DNA of 31,146 nt from IMG/VR virus record IMGVR_UViG_3300009408_000227, positions 1 to 31,146 of that record, one strand, 5' to 3'. The notes beneath the pieces are model-generated. The model had not been told where the DNA came from. It saw only the letters and a list, made by a program, of their open reading frames with translations, and searched no databases. Of the stretch, positions 2,971-30,930 are shown piece by piece. This DNA is from a virus. Numbering within the stretch: position 1 is the first letter of the stretch; every line of letters begins with the position of its first letter. The position numbers were made by a program, and so were the translations under genes.

Positions 2971-3528
2971 ATGGCTAAATGTAAAATATGCAAACGTGAA
3001 TACCAAAAATTTTCATCAATGCAAAAAGTGTGCGGTGTAACATGTTCAATAAAATTAGTTAAACAAGAGAAAGAAAAAAAATTTAAACAGAAAACAAACG
3101 AATTAAGGGTTAAAGCAAAAACTAAGTCTCAATGGCTAAAGGAAGCTGAAAGAGAATTTAATCGATACATTAGGGCTAGAGATTTTTATGATCCTTGTAT
3201 AAGTTGTAGGACTATTAAATACGTACAGTATGCAGCAGGACATTACTTCACTAAAGGCGGGCACTCTGAATTGAGATTTAACGAGGACAACGTACATAAA
3301 CAGTGCAACAAACATTGTAACATGATGTTATCAGGAAATATCGCAGCTTATCGAGTAGAGCTTGAGAAAAAGATAGGTGCAGAAAGATTAAGGATTTTGG
3401 AAGGTAAGCACGAACCAAAAAATTATACGATTGACGACATTAAAAAAATTAAAGAGAAGTACAAGAAATTAGCGAAAGAATTAGAAGACCAGATAGTAAA
3501 CAATTTTACAATTAAGGCGGATAAATGA
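2971..3528 (+). CDS. ninG: NinG (Rap) recombination nuclease
   Basis: A 185-residue NinG family protein, a structure-specific endonuclease related to endonuclease VII that acts on recombination intermediates. An N-terminal zinc site uses C4, C7, C21 and C25. Further motifs are the EFNRYIRARD helix, the second CxxC in PCISCR, then AAGHYFTKGG and RFNEDNVHKQC, all typical of NinG. I chose ATG 2971 over the in-frame ATG at 2947, because the family begins MAKCKxC and 2947 lies inside ninB. The gene marks the end of the recognisable nin region. The sugar cassette starts in its last four bases. Confidence 0.9.
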   Translation: MAKCKICKREYQKFSSMQKVCGVTCSIKLVKQEKEKKFKQKTNELRVKAKTKSQWLKEAEREFNRYIRARDFYDPCISCRTIKYVQYAAGHYFTKGGHSELRFNEDNVHKQCNKHCNMMLSGNIAAYRVELEKKIGAERLRILEGKHEPKNYTIDDIKKIKEKYKKLAKELEDQIVNNFTIKADK

Positions 3529-4664
3529 ATATTTTAACCTTAGGAGCAAGCGGATACTTAGGATGGGTCAATCTCTTACATTTCACCAAACAAGGACATA
3601 ATGTAATTGGGGTAGACTCAAGATTAAAACAAATAATGTTGGCTAAAGGAAATTTAACTGCATTGGAAGTTGAACCAGATACAAACAGTCGCGTTGAAAC
3701 TGCAAAACGATTATTTAAAAATGAAAACGTTATATTTCTTGAGAATGATATTTGTGATAATGGCGTATTAACCCAGATAATTGAAAAACACACCCCTGAT
3801 GTGATTTTACATTTTGCCGAACAACCTAGCGCGCCCTTTTCAATGTTAAATGAATTTAATGCTTGTGGCACACTTCACAACAATATCATCGGCACTCAAA
3901 AATTAATTTGGGCGGTTAAGGAGATCAATCCAGAGATACATATCATTAAATTGGGTACGATGGGGGAATATGGAACACCAAACATTGATATAGAAGAAGG
4001 CTGGCTTGATGTTAATCACAACGGACGAACTGACAAAATGTTATTCCCTAAATCACCTCATTCGATCTACCACTTATCAAAAGTAAATGATTCTGACGCT
4101 CTAGCTTTTGCGTGTAGAGTATGGGGGTTAAAGGTTACTGATCTTAACCAAGGTTTTGTGTATGGAATGCATACACCTGAAACAGATGAAACAGGTCTAT
4201 ACCCTAGATTTTGTTATGACTCAGTATTCGGAACAGTGCTAAATCGATTTATTGTTCAGTCAGTAGTTGGGCACCCTTTAACTATTTACGGTACTGGCGG
4301 TCAAACAAGACCCATGATAAATATAAACGATACGATTAAATGTATTCAATTGGCTATCGACAACCCTGCCGACCAGGGCGAATTTAGAGTATTTAATCAA
4401 TACACTGAAACAATGAGTATTAACAAAATAGCCGATATGGTATCTCAAGTTACAAACTGCCCGATTGAAAATATTACAAACCCAAGAACAGAAAAGGAAG
4501 ATCATTATTATAACCCAAAAAATTCAGCTCTTAGTCAATTAGGGCTAGAGCCTGATTTATTAACATCAGAATTAATCTGTAAAATGGTTAATTGGGTTGA
4601 GGCTAGAAAGCAATATATTAACGAAGATCAAATATTACCTACTATTGCATGGAGCGGAAAATGA
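3525..4664 (+). CDS. sqdB: UDP-sulfoquinovose synthase (SQD1/SqdB family)
   Basis: A 379-residue extended SDR. SqdB makes UDP-sulfoquinovose from UDP-glucose and sulfite with bound NAD. The NAD-binding turn is GASGYLGW (7-14). Family-specific blocks are FAEQPSAPFSM (97-107), LGTMGEYGTPNIDIEEG (143-159), HNGRTD (165-170), YHLSKVNDS (182-190), TDLNQGFVYG (205-214) and FGTVLNRF (235-242). Candidate catalytic residues T145, Y182, H183 and K186 are all present. Length matches the bacterial enzyme. The family is known from photosynthetic bacteria, plastids, rhizobia and some archaea, so a phage copy between ninG and the late regulator is unexpected. Start ATGA overlaps the ninG stop. Product identity as a sulfonated sugar is inferred from family. 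Confidence 0.88.
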   Translation: MNILTLGASGYLGWVNLLHFTKQGHNVIGVDSRLKQIMLAKGNLTALEVEPDTNSRVETAKRLFKNENVIFLENDICDNGVLTQIIEKHTPDVILHFAEQPSAPFSMLNEFNACGTLHNNIIGTQKLIWAVKEINPEIHIIKLGTMGEYGTPNIDIEEGWLDVNHNGRTDKMLFPKSPHSIYHLSKVNDSDALAFACRVWGLKVTDLNQGFVYGMHTPETDETGLYPRFCYDSVFGTVLNRFIVQSVVGHPLTIYGTGGQTRPMININDTIKCIQLAIDNPADQGEFRVFNQYTETMSINKIADMVSQVTNCPIENITNPRTEKEDHYYNPKNSALSQLGLEPDLLTSELICKMVNWVEARKQYINEDQILPTIAWSGK

Positions 4665-5491
4665 AATATTTAATAACAGGTTCTAATGGTTTTATTGGTA
4701 GTGCGTTATCTAAACATACCACCGACAATGTCGGTTTTGATATAAAGCAAGACTCAAGCAAATCAGTAGCTAATTATTACGCGTTTGAGAATTATATAAA
4801 ATCAGTAGCACCAGACGTTATTGTTCATCTTGCGGCAATTTCAGGGATAAAAGATTGTATTGATGACCCAGAAGGGGCTTTTCAAACAAACGTTAAAGGG
4901 GCAACAAATGTGTTAGACTTGGCTAAAAAATACAAAATAAAAAGAGTTATCATGGCATCAAGCGCAGGGGTGATAGCTTGTCCTAGCCCATACCATGCAC
5001 ATAAAAGATATTTAGAGGATATATCATCAGCCTATCATATAACTCATGGTGTCAGCGTTTGTTGCTTACGGTTTTCAAATGTCTATGGTATAGGTTCAAT
5101 CGATAAAAGCTCTGTTATTGCCAACATGTTTAAAGAAGCAATCACAAGCGGAATTATCACAGTAGAGGGCGGCAAACAATCAAGAGATTTTGTATGCATA
5201 GATGACGTTGTTAGAGGAATAATAATAGCATCTGAATCTAATTATTCCGGCACACTGAATATTGGTGGAGGGAATCAGTTCTCAATTAATGAGATCGCAA
5301 CTAAAATAAGTAACTTAACGAAAGCTAAAATAGTATGTAAAAATCCAAGGCCAAATGATGTTAAAGACAACTATGTTGATATTGGGTTTTCTGAGGACAT
5401 TTTAGACTGGCATCCTTACGCCGGGATAAATAACGAATTAAATAAAACATATAATTATTTCAAAGAGTCTATCTTAAGTGAGGCAGTATGA
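4661..5491 (+). CDS. NAD-dependent sugar-nucleotide epimerase/dehydratase (SDR)
   Basis: A 276-residue extended SDR of the GalE/RmlB superfamily. GSNGFIG (7-13) binds NAD. The catalytic pair is Y111 and K115 (YHAHK), after the usual serine region ASSAG (99-103). RFSNVYG (142 onward) and RDFVCIDDVV (about 184-193) are typical of UDP- or dTDP-sugar epimerases and dehydratases. It is shorter than GalE (about 340), so the C-terminal substrate domain is compact. I start at ATG 4661, not the in-frame ATG at 4649, because 4661 gives a four-base overlap with sqdB and has GGAGCGG upstream. The substrate cannot be read from sequence; it could modify the SqdB product or make an independent sugar. Confidence 0.8.
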   Translation: MKYLITGSNGFIGSALSKHTTDNVGFDIKQDSSKSVANYYAFENYIKSVAPDVIVHLAAISGIKDCIDDPEGAFQTNVKGATNVLDLAKKYKIKRVIMASSAGVIACPSPYHAHKRYLEDISSAYHITHGVSVCCLRFSNVYGIGSIDKSSVIANMFKEAITSGIITVEGGKQSRDFVCIDDVVRGIIIASESNYSGTLNIGGGNQFSINEIATKISNLTKAKIVCKNPRPNDVKDNYVDIGFSEDILDWHPYAGINNELNKTYNYFKESILSEAV

Positions 5492-5661
5492 CTTTTAATA
5501 TAGAAGCGGCGCAAAAGGATTATGATTTTACCAAAGGCGCAATAAGAGATTTCAAGGTATGGTTATTAAGCCTTGAGAGAGAGATAGCTCATGGAATTAA
5601 TGACTTTAACGATCTAAGAAATATATTTTATGTACATTTTGGTAGGGGGGCGAGAAAGTGA
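5488..5661 (+). CDS. 57-residue orphan inside the sugar cassette
   Basis: Opened by an ATGA overlap with the preceding SDR and closed by a GTGA overlap with the radical SAM gene, so it is held in frame on both sides. The protein (MTFNIEAAQKDYDFTKGA at its start) looks helical with aromatic and charged residues and ends basic. It has no signal or membrane segment and no recognised family. Small size and context suggest a partner or acyl-carrier-like accessory, but the usual carrier DSL serine motif is absent. Confidence 0.55.
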   Translation: MTFNIEAAQKDYDFTKGAIRDFKVWLLSLEREIAHGINDFNDLRNIFYVHFGRGARK

Positions 5662-6536
5662 AACTACTACACTATCACTGGTATCGTTTTAAATGGTTCT
5701 TAACAGAACATACAAACTATACCCCTAAAGTCCCATTGCATTTAGATTTAGAATTAACTAATCAATGTAATCTAAAATGTACCATGTGTCGGCATGGAAT
5801 AGACCCTGAACCAAATCAAGGTCAAATGAGTACAGAAAACGCCTATAAGATAATTGAACAAGCTGGCGATTTAGGTATCCCGTCAATGAAATTTCAATTT
5901 CGCGGTGAATCAGCATTACATAAAGATTTAGAAGAATTAATTTATTTCGCCAAACATTGTAGAATTTTAGAAACGCAATTGAATACAAATTTAGTTGCCT
6001 TTAATAAACACCGCATTAAAAAATTATGCGATTCAGGACTGGATAGAATTATCGTATCAATTGACGGAGCGAATAAGAAAACCTATGAGAAAATACGAGT
6101 AGGCGCAAAGTGGACTAAGTTACTTAAAAATCTTGAATACCTAAACTCACATAAAAAACGCCCTAAAATTCGTATACAAATAACCTATCAGGATCAAAAC
6201 AGGCAAGAAATAGAAGAATTTAAAACTAAATTCAAACCATTATGCGATGAATTAAATATAAAACCTGTTCGATCTGATAACTCTGGTGGTGAGCGTAAAT
6301 CTTGCCCACAACCTAGACAACGAATAGTAGTGGGGTGGGATGGTAAAATGTATGGGTGCTGTAATGCTTGGAATGGAGAATCAATATTATGTTGCGCTCC
6401 ATTCCCAAAACTAAAAACTATATTCGAACCAGAATATCTACTTAACGATGAGCTGAAAAACTTAAGGTGTAAAGCAAAAAATCCTAGCGAATTTGAACCT
6501 TGTAAATCTTGTTTAATAAGGAGTAGTTACAAATGA
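5658..6536 (+). CDS. Radical SAM protein with SPASM-like C-terminus
   Basis: A 292-residue protein. C37, C41 and C44 form the CxxxCxxC site for the 4Fe-4S cluster that cleaves S-adenosylmethionine. QFRGESALH (about 90-98) is a GGEP-like element. The last 80 residues hold cysteines at 216, 234, 235, 245, 246, 271, 282 and 285, as in SPASM/twitch auxiliary-cluster domains. A GTG start at 5658 overlaps the previous stop by four bases and is preceded by a run of six G. Relatives occur in surface-polysaccharide and nonulosonate loci, where the chemistry is often undefined (epimerisation, dehydration or carbon-skeleton changes). Its direct coupling to the NeuB-like gene suggests it acts on the same sugar or its precursor. 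Confidence 0.85.
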   Translation: MKLLHYHWYRFKWFLTEHTNYTPKVPLHLDLELTNQCNLKCTMCRHGIDPEPNQGQMSTENAYKIIEQAGDLGIPSMKFQFRGESALHKDLEELIYFAKHCRILETQLNTNLVAFNKHRIKKLCDSGLDRIIVSIDGANKKTYEKIRVGAKWTKLLKNLEYLNSHKKRPKIRIQITYQDQNRQEIEEFKTKFKPLCDELNIKPVRSDNSGGERKSCPQPRQRIVVGWDGKMYGCCNAWNGESILCCAPFPKLKTIFEPEYLLNDELKNLRCKAKNPSEFEPCKSCLIRSSYK

Positions 6537-14421: not shown

Positions 14422-14778
14422 ATGGCTATCTCCAACATACTTAAAAAACAAGATTACACAGTAGGTATTAAGACTATTAATGCACGACCTATTCCGGTAA
14501 GCGCAAAAACAATAAAAGTAACGGCTATGCGTGAAGGCTGGAAGATAAACGAAGGGATGAGGATGCAAGTACAAGTTAGTATCTCGGGTAAGCCTTGGTT
14601 TACTTTAATGAAATGCAAAGCAAAGGGTGGAAAGGTATTAGATGAATATAGGCAGGAAATTATTGAAACTACTATGTTTACCAAAATTCCGCACCCTGAA
14701 ATAACTAACCGAAGGGTAAGAGCTAAGATAGAATTCTTTAACGTAATGGCAACAAAATTAGATGTTGAGTTCTTATAA
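14422..14778 (+). CDS. Hypothetical virion-block protein, 118 residues
   Basis: A small basic beta-rich protein (SAKTIKVTAMREG, MQVQVSISGKPWFTLMKC) with no signal or membrane segment. Located between portal and the two head or fibre-like proteins and coupled to the next gene by one base. The position suggests a minor head or connector component. No family recognised. Confidence 0.55.
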   Translation: MAISNILKKQDYTVGIKTINARPIPVSAKTIKVTAMREGWKINEGMRMQVQVSISGKPWFTLMKCKAKGGKVLDEYRQEIIETTMFTKIPHPEITNRRVRAKIEFFNVMATKLDVEFL

Positions 14779-15551
14779 TGGCTATCACACTAAAGTCAAC
14801 TAATAGCACTAGCAGCACATCAGACGCAGCTAGTTTCACATTTACTAATGGTTTAGTAGTTGCAGCAGGTACAGATAGATTTTTAACCTGCGCTGTCAGT
14901 TCTGAGGACGGTACTGATGCTGATATGTATATCACTAGTATTGTCGTTGATCCGGCAGGGGTTAATAAATCACTAACAAAGAGCGTTGAGGCATCCACAG
15001 GCGGCGGCGGGTTTTCTAACTATGCAAGCCTATGGTATTTAAAAGAAGCTGATTTCCCAGCAGCAGCAACTTATGACGTTGTAGTAACTTTCCCCGGTTC
15101 AGTTTCGGAATATGGCATTACTCTAAATGTTTATGAAAGTGTCGATTCTACAAGCCCAGAGGCAACAGGATCTCAGGTAAGTGGATCAACAACAACGGTT
15201 AGTGCAGCAATAACAACTATATCAGCTAATGCGTGGGTAGTTGATTGTGCATCATCAGGTGAGGCAGCGGTATCAATTAGTCCTGATAGCCCTCAAGTGT
15301 CAAGGAATGTAACTGATGCAGATTCTCATTGGCATGGCTGTAGTGATGTACCAATAGTGACTGCCGGAGCAACAAGTACGGACTGGACGGCGGTGAGTTC
15401 TGAAAATAGATTTATATTAGTTAATTTAGCATTGAAGCCTACAGGCGGCGGCGGTGGTGGAGGTGGTAGAATTATGAGCAGTTTAACAAATCATGGCGGT
15501 TTAGCTGGTAAAGGCGGTATAGCTGGACAGGGTGGAGGTTTAGCAGGATGA
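14778..15551 (+). CDS. Beta-sandwich virion protein with glycine-rich tail
   Basis: A 257-residue S/T/A-rich protein of alternating beta strands, like phage head-decoration or minor fibre proteins. The last 40 residues begin with a run of glycines and continue in degenerate repeats (GGLAGKGGIAGQGGGLAG), which could be a flexible assembly or trimerisation tail. Overlaps the next gene by four bases. Its long S/T tracts would also suit it as a glycan acceptor. Function inferred from composition and position only. Confidence 0.6.
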   Translation: MAITLKSTNSTSSTSDAASFTFTNGLVVAAGTDRFLTCAVSSEDGTDADMYITSIVVDPAGVNKSLTKSVEASTGGGGFSNYASLWYLKEADFPAAATYDVVVTFPGSVSEYGITLNVYESVDSTSPEATGSQVSGSTTTVSAAITTISANAWVVDCASSGEAAVSISPDSPQVSRNVTDADSHWHGCSDVPIVTAGATSTDWTAVSSENRFILVNLALKPTGGGGGGGGRIMSSLTNHGGLAGKGGIAGQGGGLAG

Positions 15552-16429
15552 GAGATATAACGTTAGGTGATACGATTTATATCAGGTTTACTACTAGGGC
15601 CTTTGCTACTGGAGTTCCTACCACTTTAGCGGGTACTCCTGTTTTATCGATTTATGAAGAAAATAATTTAGTACAAATTACTGCCGGTGTTAGTGTGACA
15701 GCAGATTATGATTCAGTTACAGGGCTTAACCAAGCAACCATCGTAGCAACTTCTGGAAATGGATATGAGTCAGGAAAATCTTATGATTTAGTCATAACCA
15801 CTGGTACTGTAAGCAGTGTATCGGTAGTTGGCGAAGTTGTAGGTTCGTTTACCGTGGAATCTAGTTCCGCATTTATTAGATTAGGTTCACCGGCCAGTGC
15901 CAGCATTGCAGCCGATCTGGTTGCTATTGATAACTTCGTTGATGGTATTGAAACAGCAGTGATTACCAATGCTGCTGGTGTAGATATATCGGCTGATATT
16001 GCCGCAGCCAAAGTTGATACAGCCGCTATTTTGGTTGACACTGGAACAACTATCCCCGGAACAATAATAACTCTACAAAGTGATACTGATAATATTCAAA
16101 CCAGAATACCGGCGGCTTTAGTTGGTGGGGTGATGGATTCAAATGTAAGTGCTATTTCATCGGATACAACAGCAGCAACAAATTTGAGTAAATCAGCCCT
16201 TGGAATTAGCTCTGGATTATGTTCTGGAACGCCAACAACTACGACTATTGCTACAGATTTAACAGATACAACTAATGAAACTTATACAGGTAGGGTCATC
16301 ATTATGACTTCGGGTAATGCTAAAAATGAGGCAACAGATATCACAGCTTATGACGGAACGACAAAGACATTAACCGTCACAGCTTTAGCGACTGCACCAG
16401 CAGCAAATGATACCTTTGTTATTGTATGA
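15548..16429 (+). CDS. Ig-like/repeat virion protein, decoration or fibre type
   Basis: A 293-residue protein. The first 105 residues look like an Ig-like beta sandwich (GDTIYIRFTTRAFATGVPTT). The middle has short helical repeats of the kind IAADLVAIDNFVDGIE and ADIAAAKVDTAAILVDTG, found in phage baseplate/decoration proteins. A last beta-rich domain of about 60 residues ends TAPAANDTFVIV. It probably sits on the outside of the head or at the head-tail join. Coupled to its neighbours by four-base overlaps. Confidence 0.6.
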   Translation: MRDITLGDTIYIRFTTRAFATGVPTTLAGTPVLSIYEENNLVQITAGVSVTADYDSVTGLNQATIVATSGNGYESGKSYDLVITTGTVSSVSVVGEVVGSFTVESSSAFIRLGSPASASIAADLVAIDNFVDGIETAVITNAAGVDISADIAAAKVDTAAILVDTGTTIPGTIITLQSDTDNIQTRIPAALVGGVMDSNVSAISSDTTAATNLSKSALGISSGLCSGTPTTTTIATDLTDTTNETYTGRVIIMTSGNAKNEATDITAYDGTTKTLTVTALATAPAANDTFVIV

Positions 16430-28970: not shown

Positions 28971-29420
28971 ATGAAAATTCAAGATCAATTAATACGACAT
29001 GAAGGTATGAGCTTAAAACCTTATAAAGATACTAAAGGTAAATGGACAGTTGGTGTCGGTCGTAATTTCAGTGATGTGCCATTCTCTGAGAGAGAACTTG
29101 TTGAGGTTTTACAACATGGCGTTACTAAAGAATGGGTATTAATGTTACTTGATAATGATATTAATAATGTTCTTAGTGATGTAATCCATTTTAATTGGTT
29201 CGATGTTTTATCCGATGTTCGTAAAAAAGTTATAATTGACATGGTGTTTAATCTTGGATTGTCCCGGTTTAATGGGTTCAAAAAAACTAAAGAGTATTTA
29301 TCAATTGGGGACTATGAAAACGCATCAATTGAAATGCTAGATTCTAGCTGGTCTTTTCAGGTAGGAAAACGATCTCGAACTTTATCAAAAATGATGTTAA
29401 CCAATGAGGATATGACGTGA
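28971..29420 (+). CDS. Endolysin, T4-type lysozyme (GH24)
   Basis: A 149-residue muramidase. The catalytic triad E11, D20 and T26 falls at the same numbers as T4 lysozyme, within RHEGMSLKPYKDTKGKWTVG. GVGRN follows, and VIIDMVFNLGLSRFNGFKK and SSWSFQVGKRSRTL are family blocks. No signal or SAR segment is seen, so it needs a holin. It cuts the peptidoglycan glycan chain. Next gene by GTGA overlap. Confidence 0.93.
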   Translation: MKIQDQLIRHEGMSLKPYKDTKGKWTVGVGRNFSDVPFSERELVEVLQHGVTKEWVLMLLDNDINNVLSDVIHFNWFDVLSDVRKKVIIDMVFNLGLSRFNGFKKTKEYLSIGDYENASIEMLDSSWSFQVGKRSRTLSKMMLTNEDMT

Positions 29421-29701
29421 GCGGACAAAAAGAGAGGCGAAAATTGATAAACGTGACTGACTTGAAAGCGGAGCGAAATACGACCATGAGCAATTTATTG
29501 TTAATGGCGTTAGTTGCGTTGACCGGGTACACGTCAACGCAAATATCATCAATTAATAAAAAAGTAGGATCAATAGATGTAACGACACAGCTAAACGGTC
29601 AAGCTATTAATACTATAGAAGATAGAATCGAAAAGCATGAGCTAGCAGACAATAAGAAATTTGATGAATTTAACGACTTTATTAGGCAGTACAGAAAATG
29701 A
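29417..29701 (+). CDS. Single-pass membrane protein, holin candidate
   Basis: A 94-residue protein with a basic N-terminus (SGQKERRKL), one membrane segment (about 25-41, NLLLMALVALTGY) and a long coiled-coil tail. GTG 29417 overlaps the endolysin stop. A second in-frame ATG at 29486-29488, just before the membrane segment, with GGAG some bases upstream, could make a shorter form lacking the basic arm, as in dual-start holins. Not a canonical holin sequence. Confidence 0.55.
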   Translation: MSGQKERRKLINVTDLKAERNTTMSNLLLMALVALTGYTSTQISSINKKVGSIDVTTQLNGQAINTIEDRIEKHELADNKKFDEFNDFIRQYRK

Positions 29702-30033
29702 GAAATATATTATCACTAATATTGCTCACTATTGTAGTTTTTAATTTAGCTAAATTACAAGCCAGTGAGTACGAACACAGTACAAAAAACTATATCACTA
29801 ATAACAGTATCAATAACTATGGTGCAGCGTTATCAATGGCAGCGTCTTCTATTGACTGCACTATGAGTACGCAACGCTTACAAATGGGGGTAGGGATAGG
29901 AGTCTACAACGATAATACAGCTTTAGTCATTGGTGGTTGTAAAAGATTCAATGATGTACTACTTAAAATATCAGGCGGTAAGGATGGGGACGACACAGCG
30001 TATAATGCTAGTGTCATGTTCACCTTAAACTAA
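29698..30033 (+). CDS. Small secreted protein resembling a YadA anchor domain
   Basis: A 111-residue protein. Residues 1-22 form a signal peptide (MRNILSLILLTIVVFNLAK). Residues about 42-111 follow the YadA membrane-anchor pattern: GAALSMAASS, then MGVGIGVYNDNTALVIGG, RFNDVLLKISGG and YNASVMFTLN, i.e. a helix then four amphipathic strands. No passenger or stalk is present. Two cysteines (in SIDCTM and IGGCKR) are unusual. Inside the lysis block, it could disturb the outer membrane or alter the host surface. Family likeness is by eye. Confidence 0.6.
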   Translation: MRNILSLILLTIVVFNLAKLQASEYEHSTKNYITNNSINNYGAALSMAASSIDCTMSTQRLQMGVGIGVYNDNTALVIGGCKRFNDVLLKISGGKDGDDTAYNASVMFTLN

Positions 30034-30296
30034 TGGCCAAGGATATATACGACAAGATAGAAGTGATACTTAGAATCATTAAAAATAATAAATGGTTACT
30101 ATTATTTGGTTTTGCAACATTGACGGGATCTAATATCGGTCAATATTTTTATTTTAGTCAACCAAGCCACCCGATCGTTAAAGAAAAAACAATAGTTAAT
30201 ACAACGGTTAAAGAGATTAACTATGACAAAGTAAAACTTTTTATAAACCGATCCGTAAAGAAGGCAATCAAACAACATGAGAAGGAGTTACACTAA
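30033..30296 (+). CDS. Single-pass membrane protein, lysis block
   Basis: An 87-residue protein with one hydrophobic segment (about 20-42, KWLLLFGFATLTGSNIGQYF) and a basic C-terminal part likely outside the cytoplasm. The ATG overlaps the previous stop by one base. Holin, antiholin or accessory lysis role are all possible. Confidence 0.5.
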   Translation: MAKDIYDKIEVILRIIKNNKWLLLFGFATLTGSNIGQYFYFSQPSHPIVKEKTIVNTTVKEINYDKVKLFINRSVKKAIKQHEKELH

Positions 30297-30472
30297 TGAA
30301 GATACCAATGTTTAAAATGTCGTTAAGTGACCAAGCAAAATCCAAAGCAATGTTATCTGGTTGGGGACTTGTATGTTTAGGTGGTTATCTCATATATACC
30401 GGAAAACCTGAAATAGGTATCGGCGTGATAATGAACGGCTATGGTTATTTAGGCGTTCGTGATGCTAAGTAG
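30296..30472 (+). CDS. Small membrane protein with two hydrophobic segments
   Basis: 58 residues, ATG at 30296, with GAAGGAG about nine bases upstream. Hydrophobic stretches at about 22-35 (GWGLVCLGGYLIY) and 39-53 (EIGIGVIMNGYGYLG), separated by GKP, suggest a hairpin in the membrane, compatible with a short holin. Overlaps the Rz-like gene by 11 bases. Confidence 0.55.
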   Translation: MKIPMFKMSLSDQAKSKAMLSGWGLVCLGGYLIYTGKPEIGIGVIMNGYGYLGVRDAK

Positions 30473-30713
30473 CGTCTTATCAGGGCTATCTACAGTTAAG
30501 TATTATATCATGGCTGCATTAGGCTTTGGTGTGGTTGTACTGTACGCTCTACTGCAATCTGAGAAAAAGGAACGGGCACAGGAAAAATTAAAAGGAATTA
30601 AAAAAGCACGGGAAACAGAAAAGAAAGCAACTAACGCAATGGTGGAGGGTTTGCAGAATGAACAAGACGTTAAAGATAACATTGATACTTCTAAGCGCGA
30701 TCATTTTGAGTAG
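30462..30713 (+). CDS. Rz: Rz-like inner-membrane spanin
   Basis: An 83-residue protein with an N-terminal membrane anchor (about 14-31, YYIMAALGFGVVVLYALL) and a charged helical periplasmic part (KKERAQEKLKGIKKARETEK). This is the i-spanin design. It contains the start of Rz1 within its last 56 bases in another frame. I choose ATG 30462; a GTG at 30459 is possible. Confidence 0.75.
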   Translation: MLSSVLSGLSTVKYYIMAALGFGVVVLYALLQSEKKERAQEKLKGIKKARETEKKATNAMVEGLQNEQDVKDNIDTSKRDHFE

Positions 30714-30894
30714 TTGTTCAGCGACCTGCGAAAGTGTTAAATTACCCATACCACCACCCGTAGTCTACGAGAAGATTAGGACAGTAGAGTTGCAATGTAT
30801 ATCAGATAACACCTACAAAAAATTAGTTGTAAATGATAATGTATGCAAGGCTCGAAATAAGACATTAGAGAATATTATTAAATCAACGCATTAA
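30658..30894 (+). CDS. Rz1: Rz1-like outer-membrane lipoprotein spanin
   Basis: A 78-residue prolipoprotein. The signal ends in the lipobox LSSC with C20 as the lipidated residue. The mature part contains a proline-rich stretch (KLPIPPPVVYEK) typical of Rz1. GGAGGG precedes the ATG. It overlaps the Rz-like gene by 56 bases out of frame and together they bridge the periplasm to fuse the two membranes in the last lysis step. Confidence 0.8.
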   Translation: MNKTLKITLILLSAIILSSCSATCESVKLPIPPPVVYEKIRTVELQCISDNTYKKLVVNDNVCKARNKTLENIIKSTH

Positions 30895-30922
30895 AAAAGC
30901 CCGGTCAATGCCGGGCTTTTTT
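30893..30922. terminator. Bidirectional intrinsic terminator
   Basis: GCCCGG (30899-30904) and CCGGGC (30911-30916) around TCAATG, with six A before and six T after. It ends the rightward late/lysis operon and the leftward gene at 30931-31107. Confidence 0.9.
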
Positions 30923-30930
30923 AGCATTAA

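Follow-up and report, generated by a model that had tools for sequence, protein, structure and literature searches.

The phage genome analysed here carries, within its lysis operon, a gene for a 111-amino-acid protein that is probably a phage-encoded minimal type Vc anchor, placed in the outer membrane late in infection, with a change of the cell surface as our leading hypothesis for its function. Stand-alone YadA anchors of phages are already known, although uncharacterised; what is new here is the place inside a lysis operon and a pair of cysteines.

The window, meaning the whole stretch of DNA that was analysed, is a complete viral record of 31,146 bases, and its genome reads as podovirus-type. 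NinB/NinG-like genes, a regulator-like gene and terminase genes, assigned by PHROG matches, occupy its left part, followed rightward by portal, scaffold and major head protein genes and then by the lysis block at 28971-30894. Portals found elsewhere share at most ~36% identity with that of the window, so that the phage is a divergent one. Between the NinG and terminase genes (3525-6536) lie two consecutive phrog_540 genes, labelled nucleotide-sugar epimerase, together with a radical-SAM-like gene, and between the portal and scaffold genes (14778-16429) there are ORFs of 257 and 293 amino acids without a PHROG match. The gene under study is the following:

29698..30033, + strand: YadA-anchor protein of 111 amino acids, identified by a PF03895 match, a shuffle test and an AlphaFold match to the anchors of Hia, YadA and AtaA

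This ORF runs from an ATG start to a TAA stop, and codon usage resembles that of the phage's own genes in its frame only (+0.103 per codon, versus -0.11 to -0.89 in the other five). The initial annotation had called its product YadA-anchor-like and proposed a profile search with that family. Carried out here, the search matched Pfam YadA_anchor (PF03895) with E 6.9e-7 and 29.7 bits, above the curated cutoff of 22.7 bits, residues 60-109 aligning to positions 8-59 of the 60 in the profile. As a guard against composition effects, a separate HMM was built from 11 other phage anchors with the window protein left out; it scored the protein at 27.5 bits, whereas shuffling the mature protein 20,000 times gave at most 16.4 bits and no other ORF of the window scored above 2.0. 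The anchor call is confirmed by these scores. The two cysteines that had been described are present, at positions 54 and 81, and a single anchor does make up nearly the whole protein, accompanied only by a signal-peptide-like start and a tail of about 18 residues. The parts of the protein are these:

29698..29763, + strand: signal-peptide-like segment, residues 1-22 (MRNILSLILLTIVVFNLAKLQA, followed by S), with a basic n-region, a hydrophobic core and A at -1
29764..29817, + strand: short mature-chain tail, residues 23-40, which precedes the pore helix in the single-sequence model, at low confidence
29818..29850, + strand: helix 41-51, counterpart of the YadA pore helix, from the single-sequence model and the alignment to YadA
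29857..29859, + strand: Cys54, directly past the pore helix, read from the sequence
29881..30021, + strand: four-strand meander, residues 62-108, from the aligned model and the Pfam match at 60-109
29938..29940, + strand: Cys81, in the latter half of strand 2, where the alignment has G74 of the YadA anchor

Judged by residues and hydropathy, the start of the protein looks like a signal peptide, in which R2 is followed by a hydrophobic core (mean hydropathy 2.04 over 19 residues) and by LQA before S. In the model, residues 23-40 are the sole stretch that could serve as a passenger, and a tail of this length on each chain fits the display of a short N-terminal peptide. In the alignment to YadA, with anchor residues numbered after PMC11912334, the glycine singled out for membrane insertion (G72) and the strand-1 tyrosine (Y63) are retained as G79 and Y70; that these two form a mortise-tenon pair is our own reading of the text of that paper. 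The C-terminus is VMFTLN, with alternating hydrophobics at V106, F108 and L110 and Asn as the last residue. The C-terminal BAM-recognition motif of YadA-type proteins usually ends with an aromatic residue, and the terminal Asn in its place counts against the trimeric-anchor explanation. The importance of the motif for recognition by BAM has been described for YadA-type proteins (PMC3297439). YadA-anchor proteins of ~835-860 amino acids at two other loci (L110 and L111), which are large phage adhesins, likewise end in Asn (...SIGN), and this ending, there and in the window protein, may possibly be a variant BAM signal.

The predicted structure is the helix and four-strand meander of the YadA anchor fold. 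Without an alignment, AlphaFold2 placed, at low confidence, a helix at 41-51 and strands at 63-71, 74-83, 86-95 and 101-109. With 20 IMG/VR phage anchors aligned, mean pLDDT was 71-81 in blocks spanning residues 41-110, with strands at 62-70, 73-84, 87-96 and 99-108, and the helix began earlier than in the single-sequence model (36-50 versus 41-51). Apolar and polar residues alternate clearly in strands 1, 3 and 4 and weakly in strand 2. In a structural comparison of the protomer, the top five matches were solved anchors of Hia, YadA and AtaA (Z 9.3-10.8), with the next row at Z 6.0; Hia 2GR8 was the best (Z 10.8, rmsd 1.8 over 75 residues), and the others were YadA 2LME, Hia 3EMO and 2GR7, and AtaA 9VNJ (Z 9.3). 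Foldseek ranked the same five first with the aligned model, whereas with the single-sequence model it was uninformative, and the profile of the 20-anchor alignment matched 2LME at E 9e-17. Since known anchors make up that alignment, the match of the aligned model counts as support rather than as independent proof; the evidence that stands on its own comes from the single-sequence model and the shuffle test. The initial annotation had staked its reading on a structural match to a trimeric barrel, and at the level of the protomer such a match was found.

The setting of the gene is made up of the following features, all on the same strand:

28971..29420, + strand: endolysin, a T4-type lysozyme (PF00959, E 5.8e-11; phrog_7 endolysin)
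29417..29701, + strand: 94-aa protein with one hydrophobic segment and then a charged region (weak matches to phrog_739, Rz-like, and phrog_4172)
30033..30296, + strand: 87-aa protein with one hydrophobic segment (ORF and hydropathy; without a PHROG match)
30296..30472, + strand: 58-aa hydrophobic protein, candidate holin (ORF and hydropathy; without a family match)
30459..30713, + strand: i-spanin-like protein with a hydrophobic segment and a charged helix-like region (phrog_1026, phrog_739 and phrog_214, Rz-like spanin, E 0.00025-0.011)
30658..30894, + strand: o-spanin-like lipoprotein, its gene overlapping that of the i-spanin (LSSC lipobox-like motif, overlapping start, weak family matches)
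30892..30923, + strand: terminator-like hairpin and U-run closing the operon (-22.1 kcal/mol, z -5.34, 0/200 shuffles as good)

The lysis setting described earlier holds, with a T4-type lysozyme at 28971 (PF00959) and an Rz-like gene and overlapping lipoprotein gene at 30459 and 30658. This last pair looks like a two-component spanin, having Rz-like matches, an LSSC lipobox-like motif and a 56-base overlap, with weak o-spanin family matches. The 94-aa protein is a candidate holin or i-spanin-like protein by its sequence features. The start codon of its gene is GTG, and an ATG follows in frame 23 codons later, just before the hydrophobic segment, so that the longer form adds a basic stretch, an arrangement reminiscent of dual-start holin/antiholin genes. 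From endolysin to o-spanin the genes run without a gap, consecutive overlaps being 4, 4, 1, 1, 14 and 56 bases, and the anchor gene overlaps its neighbours on both sides. Promoter-like matches in the lysis region showed no excess over chance expectation. Given the gene overlaps and the closing hairpin, the anchor gene is most likely co-expressed with the lysis genes.

A gene within, and overlapping, a lysis operon invites the explanation that its product is itself an outer-membrane lysis factor, whose barrels, made at lysis time, would loosen or perforate the membrane or load the BAM machinery, weakening the membrane and helping the spanins. We consider this unlikely, as the operon already holds a spanin pair and three helices should occupy the pore of the barrel. 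The more specific proposal of a lysis-timed trimeric barrel that cooperates with endolysin and spanins (for example through a disulfide-controlled helix plug or BAM loading), and so represents an outer-membrane lysis component of a kind other than spanins and disruptins, seems to us very improbable. YadA-type barrels hold their own helices inside the pore, and for this reason, and because the phage has its own spanins, we favour a surface role over hole-making.

Against 50,697 phage records, tblastn with the window protein found no close relatives and only two chance-level matches, and none were found in IMG/VR or GTDB genomes; XaC1 gp60 was rejected as an anchor, since it looks like a chance tblastn match. 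Queries with the endolysin and the 27160 protein gave no close relatives in IMG/VR, and 50 contigs sharing portal similarity, many of them short fragments, contained no PF03895 match. An IMG/VR search from an alignment headed by the window protein yielded no confirmed relative, and one headed by phiR1-RT g139 yielded 23 anchor-bearing loci. No second lysis-operon anchor was found among these 23 loci and the 50 portal-sharing contigs. A hydrolase search at the anchor loci, covering lysozyme and SleB-type families, placed such genes kilobases off or did not find them, except in phiEco32, and the literature searched gave us no account of a phage lysis cassette that includes a YadA anchor.

Similar cysteine spacing prompted a comparison with a pelagiphage cysteine protein, phrog_20531, and homology was rejected: the HMM score was 7.0 bits, below that of shuffled sequences, and the hhalign probability was 0.8%. 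The phrog_20531 protein (L128:291-902, - strand; relatives L130-L209) is signal-peptide-like and has four conserved cysteines. In portal relatives of the window phage its genes lie downstream of those for lysozyme and holin; they are known also from pelagiphages, with relatives in at least 597 IMG/VR stretches and with the strikingly conserved blocks PSMSA.SQDLC...DENCERIKL...GMKVA.VSILCQD.

The closest design is that of short anchors in T4-like phages, which are 122-140 amino acids long and, like the window protein, have a signal-peptide-like start, a short spacer and one C-terminal YadA anchor: phiR1-RT g139 (122), phiP4-3 gp146 (130), CGG4-1 gp122 (140), X20 (125) and Pm5461 gp114 (134). 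The rarity implied by the initial annotation was therefore overstated, T4-like phages having the same stand-alone design outside lysis cassettes, and its recurrence there indicates a maintained kind of protein. These genes mostly lie near tRNA genes, whereas the window anchor lies inside a lysis operon; the members read lack its two cysteines and end in F or W, and in the alignment they are 16-19% identical to it. In Serratia phages, X20 among them, the homologue ORF145 was recognised in print as resembling the YadA anchor in 2017 (PMC5449768). It lies in a region of 6.5-10 kb that can be lost, the resulting mutants escaping ToxIN and remaining able to grow (PMC5449768), and ORF145 is therefore dispensable in these phages. 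In the Yersinia phage TG1 (L101:5001-5369; L213), the stand-alone anchor gene has an early nonsense codon, and the annotated ORF begins after it, without the signal-peptide-like start; the phiR1-RT copy is intact.

That T4-like phages grow without the anchor gene (PMC5449768) weighs further against a lysis factor, as does the separation of the gene from lysis cassettes in other anchor-bearing phages. The same viable deletions spanning the Serratia phage homologue (PMC5449768), with the nonsense codon in the TG1 copy and the scattered occurrence of anchors, would suit a gene that is accessory or in decay: a remnant adhesin anchor, or one of host origin, carried as cargo and of minor consequence for the lytic cycle, or of consequence only in particular hosts. 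For the window phage we regard this as doubtful: its copy is intact, with typical codon usage, and retains the signal-peptide-like start and key residues, and it overlaps neighbours on both sides, which sets it apart from cargo genes that are inserted along with a promoter.

Larger phage anchors, which carry a collagen or coiled-coil passenger, are found in phiEco32, in members of the Schitoviridae and Ackermannviridae and in jumbo phages. phiEco32 gp119 and the Schitoviridae "agglutinating adhesins" share with the window protein a signal-peptide-like start and a YadA anchor encoded by a phage, but they carry a collagen-like passenger, reach 265-330 amino acids and lie outside an endolysin-spanin operon. 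None of the larger or T4-like phage anchors examined has a canonical lysis-cassette position. The phiEco32 gene gp119 (L087:3350-4647; collagen repeats and YadA anchor) lies just upstream of gp117, which encodes a SleB-type hydrolase (PF07486), and a separate PF00959 lysozyme is found elsewhere in that genome. A YadA-type gene directly before one for a cell-wall hydrolase is a point in favour of the lysis-factor explanation.

Several phage YadA-domain proteins carry the label tail protein, and a 444-aa YadA-domain protein was detected by mass spectrometry in particles of the cyanophage S-SZBM1 (PMC9146016), so that a place in the virion, as a small trimeric part of tail or fibre that touches the outer membrane, was also considered. 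The signal-peptide-like start and the position among lysis genes rather than tail genes, together with Salmonella phage homologues that are likewise not beside tail genes (PMC3728262), make a virion role highly improbable, and less likely than a lysis aid or an accessory gene.

Among bacterial proteins, the type Vc anchors of YadA, Hia and AtaA share with the window protein the pore helix and four strands and the conserved Gly and Tyr. They belong to surface adhesins with head, stalk and coiled-coil passenger, which the phage protein lacks. Identity as a full trimeric autotransporter adhesin was rejected, since a passenger with stalk and head is absent and only about 18 residues precede the helix; we accordingly do not file the protein in that class, trimerisation being an expectation from the family. 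Isolated transmembrane domains of trimeric autotransporter adhesins are reported to suffice for trimerisation and export (PMC3297439), which makes a bare anchor functionally plausible.

We return to the surface-change hypothesis. By analogy with its family, the protein would be exported by Sec and inserted by BAM; three chains would build a 12-strand barrel, their helices in the pore and three short tails exposed at the cell surface. A Cys54-Cys81 disulfide is possible and would perhaps pin the helix to the barrel wall. The operon suggests that the anchor is produced along with endolysin and spanins as infection ends. It would then alter the surface of both the dying cell and the cell debris, to which superinfecting or newly released phages might adsorb less well. 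T5 Llp and lambdoid Lom are small phage proteins that are exported to the outer membrane of the host, the former a lipoprotein that shields its receptor and the latter an OmpX-type barrel. Both are unrelated to the window protein, and the functional link is by analogy only; that the anchor lowers phage adsorption to the dying cell or debris, working like Llp, is a tentative suggestion.

Stand-alone YadA anchors recur across several phage groups without an assigned function, and an anchor locked into a lysis operon offers a contextual clue that points to a late, envelope-directed role. It makes testable the effect of a bare trimeric anchor on phage adsorption or outer-membrane integrity, and, as a naturally minimal type Vc anchor that may contain a disulfide, it would be useful for the study of barrel assembly.
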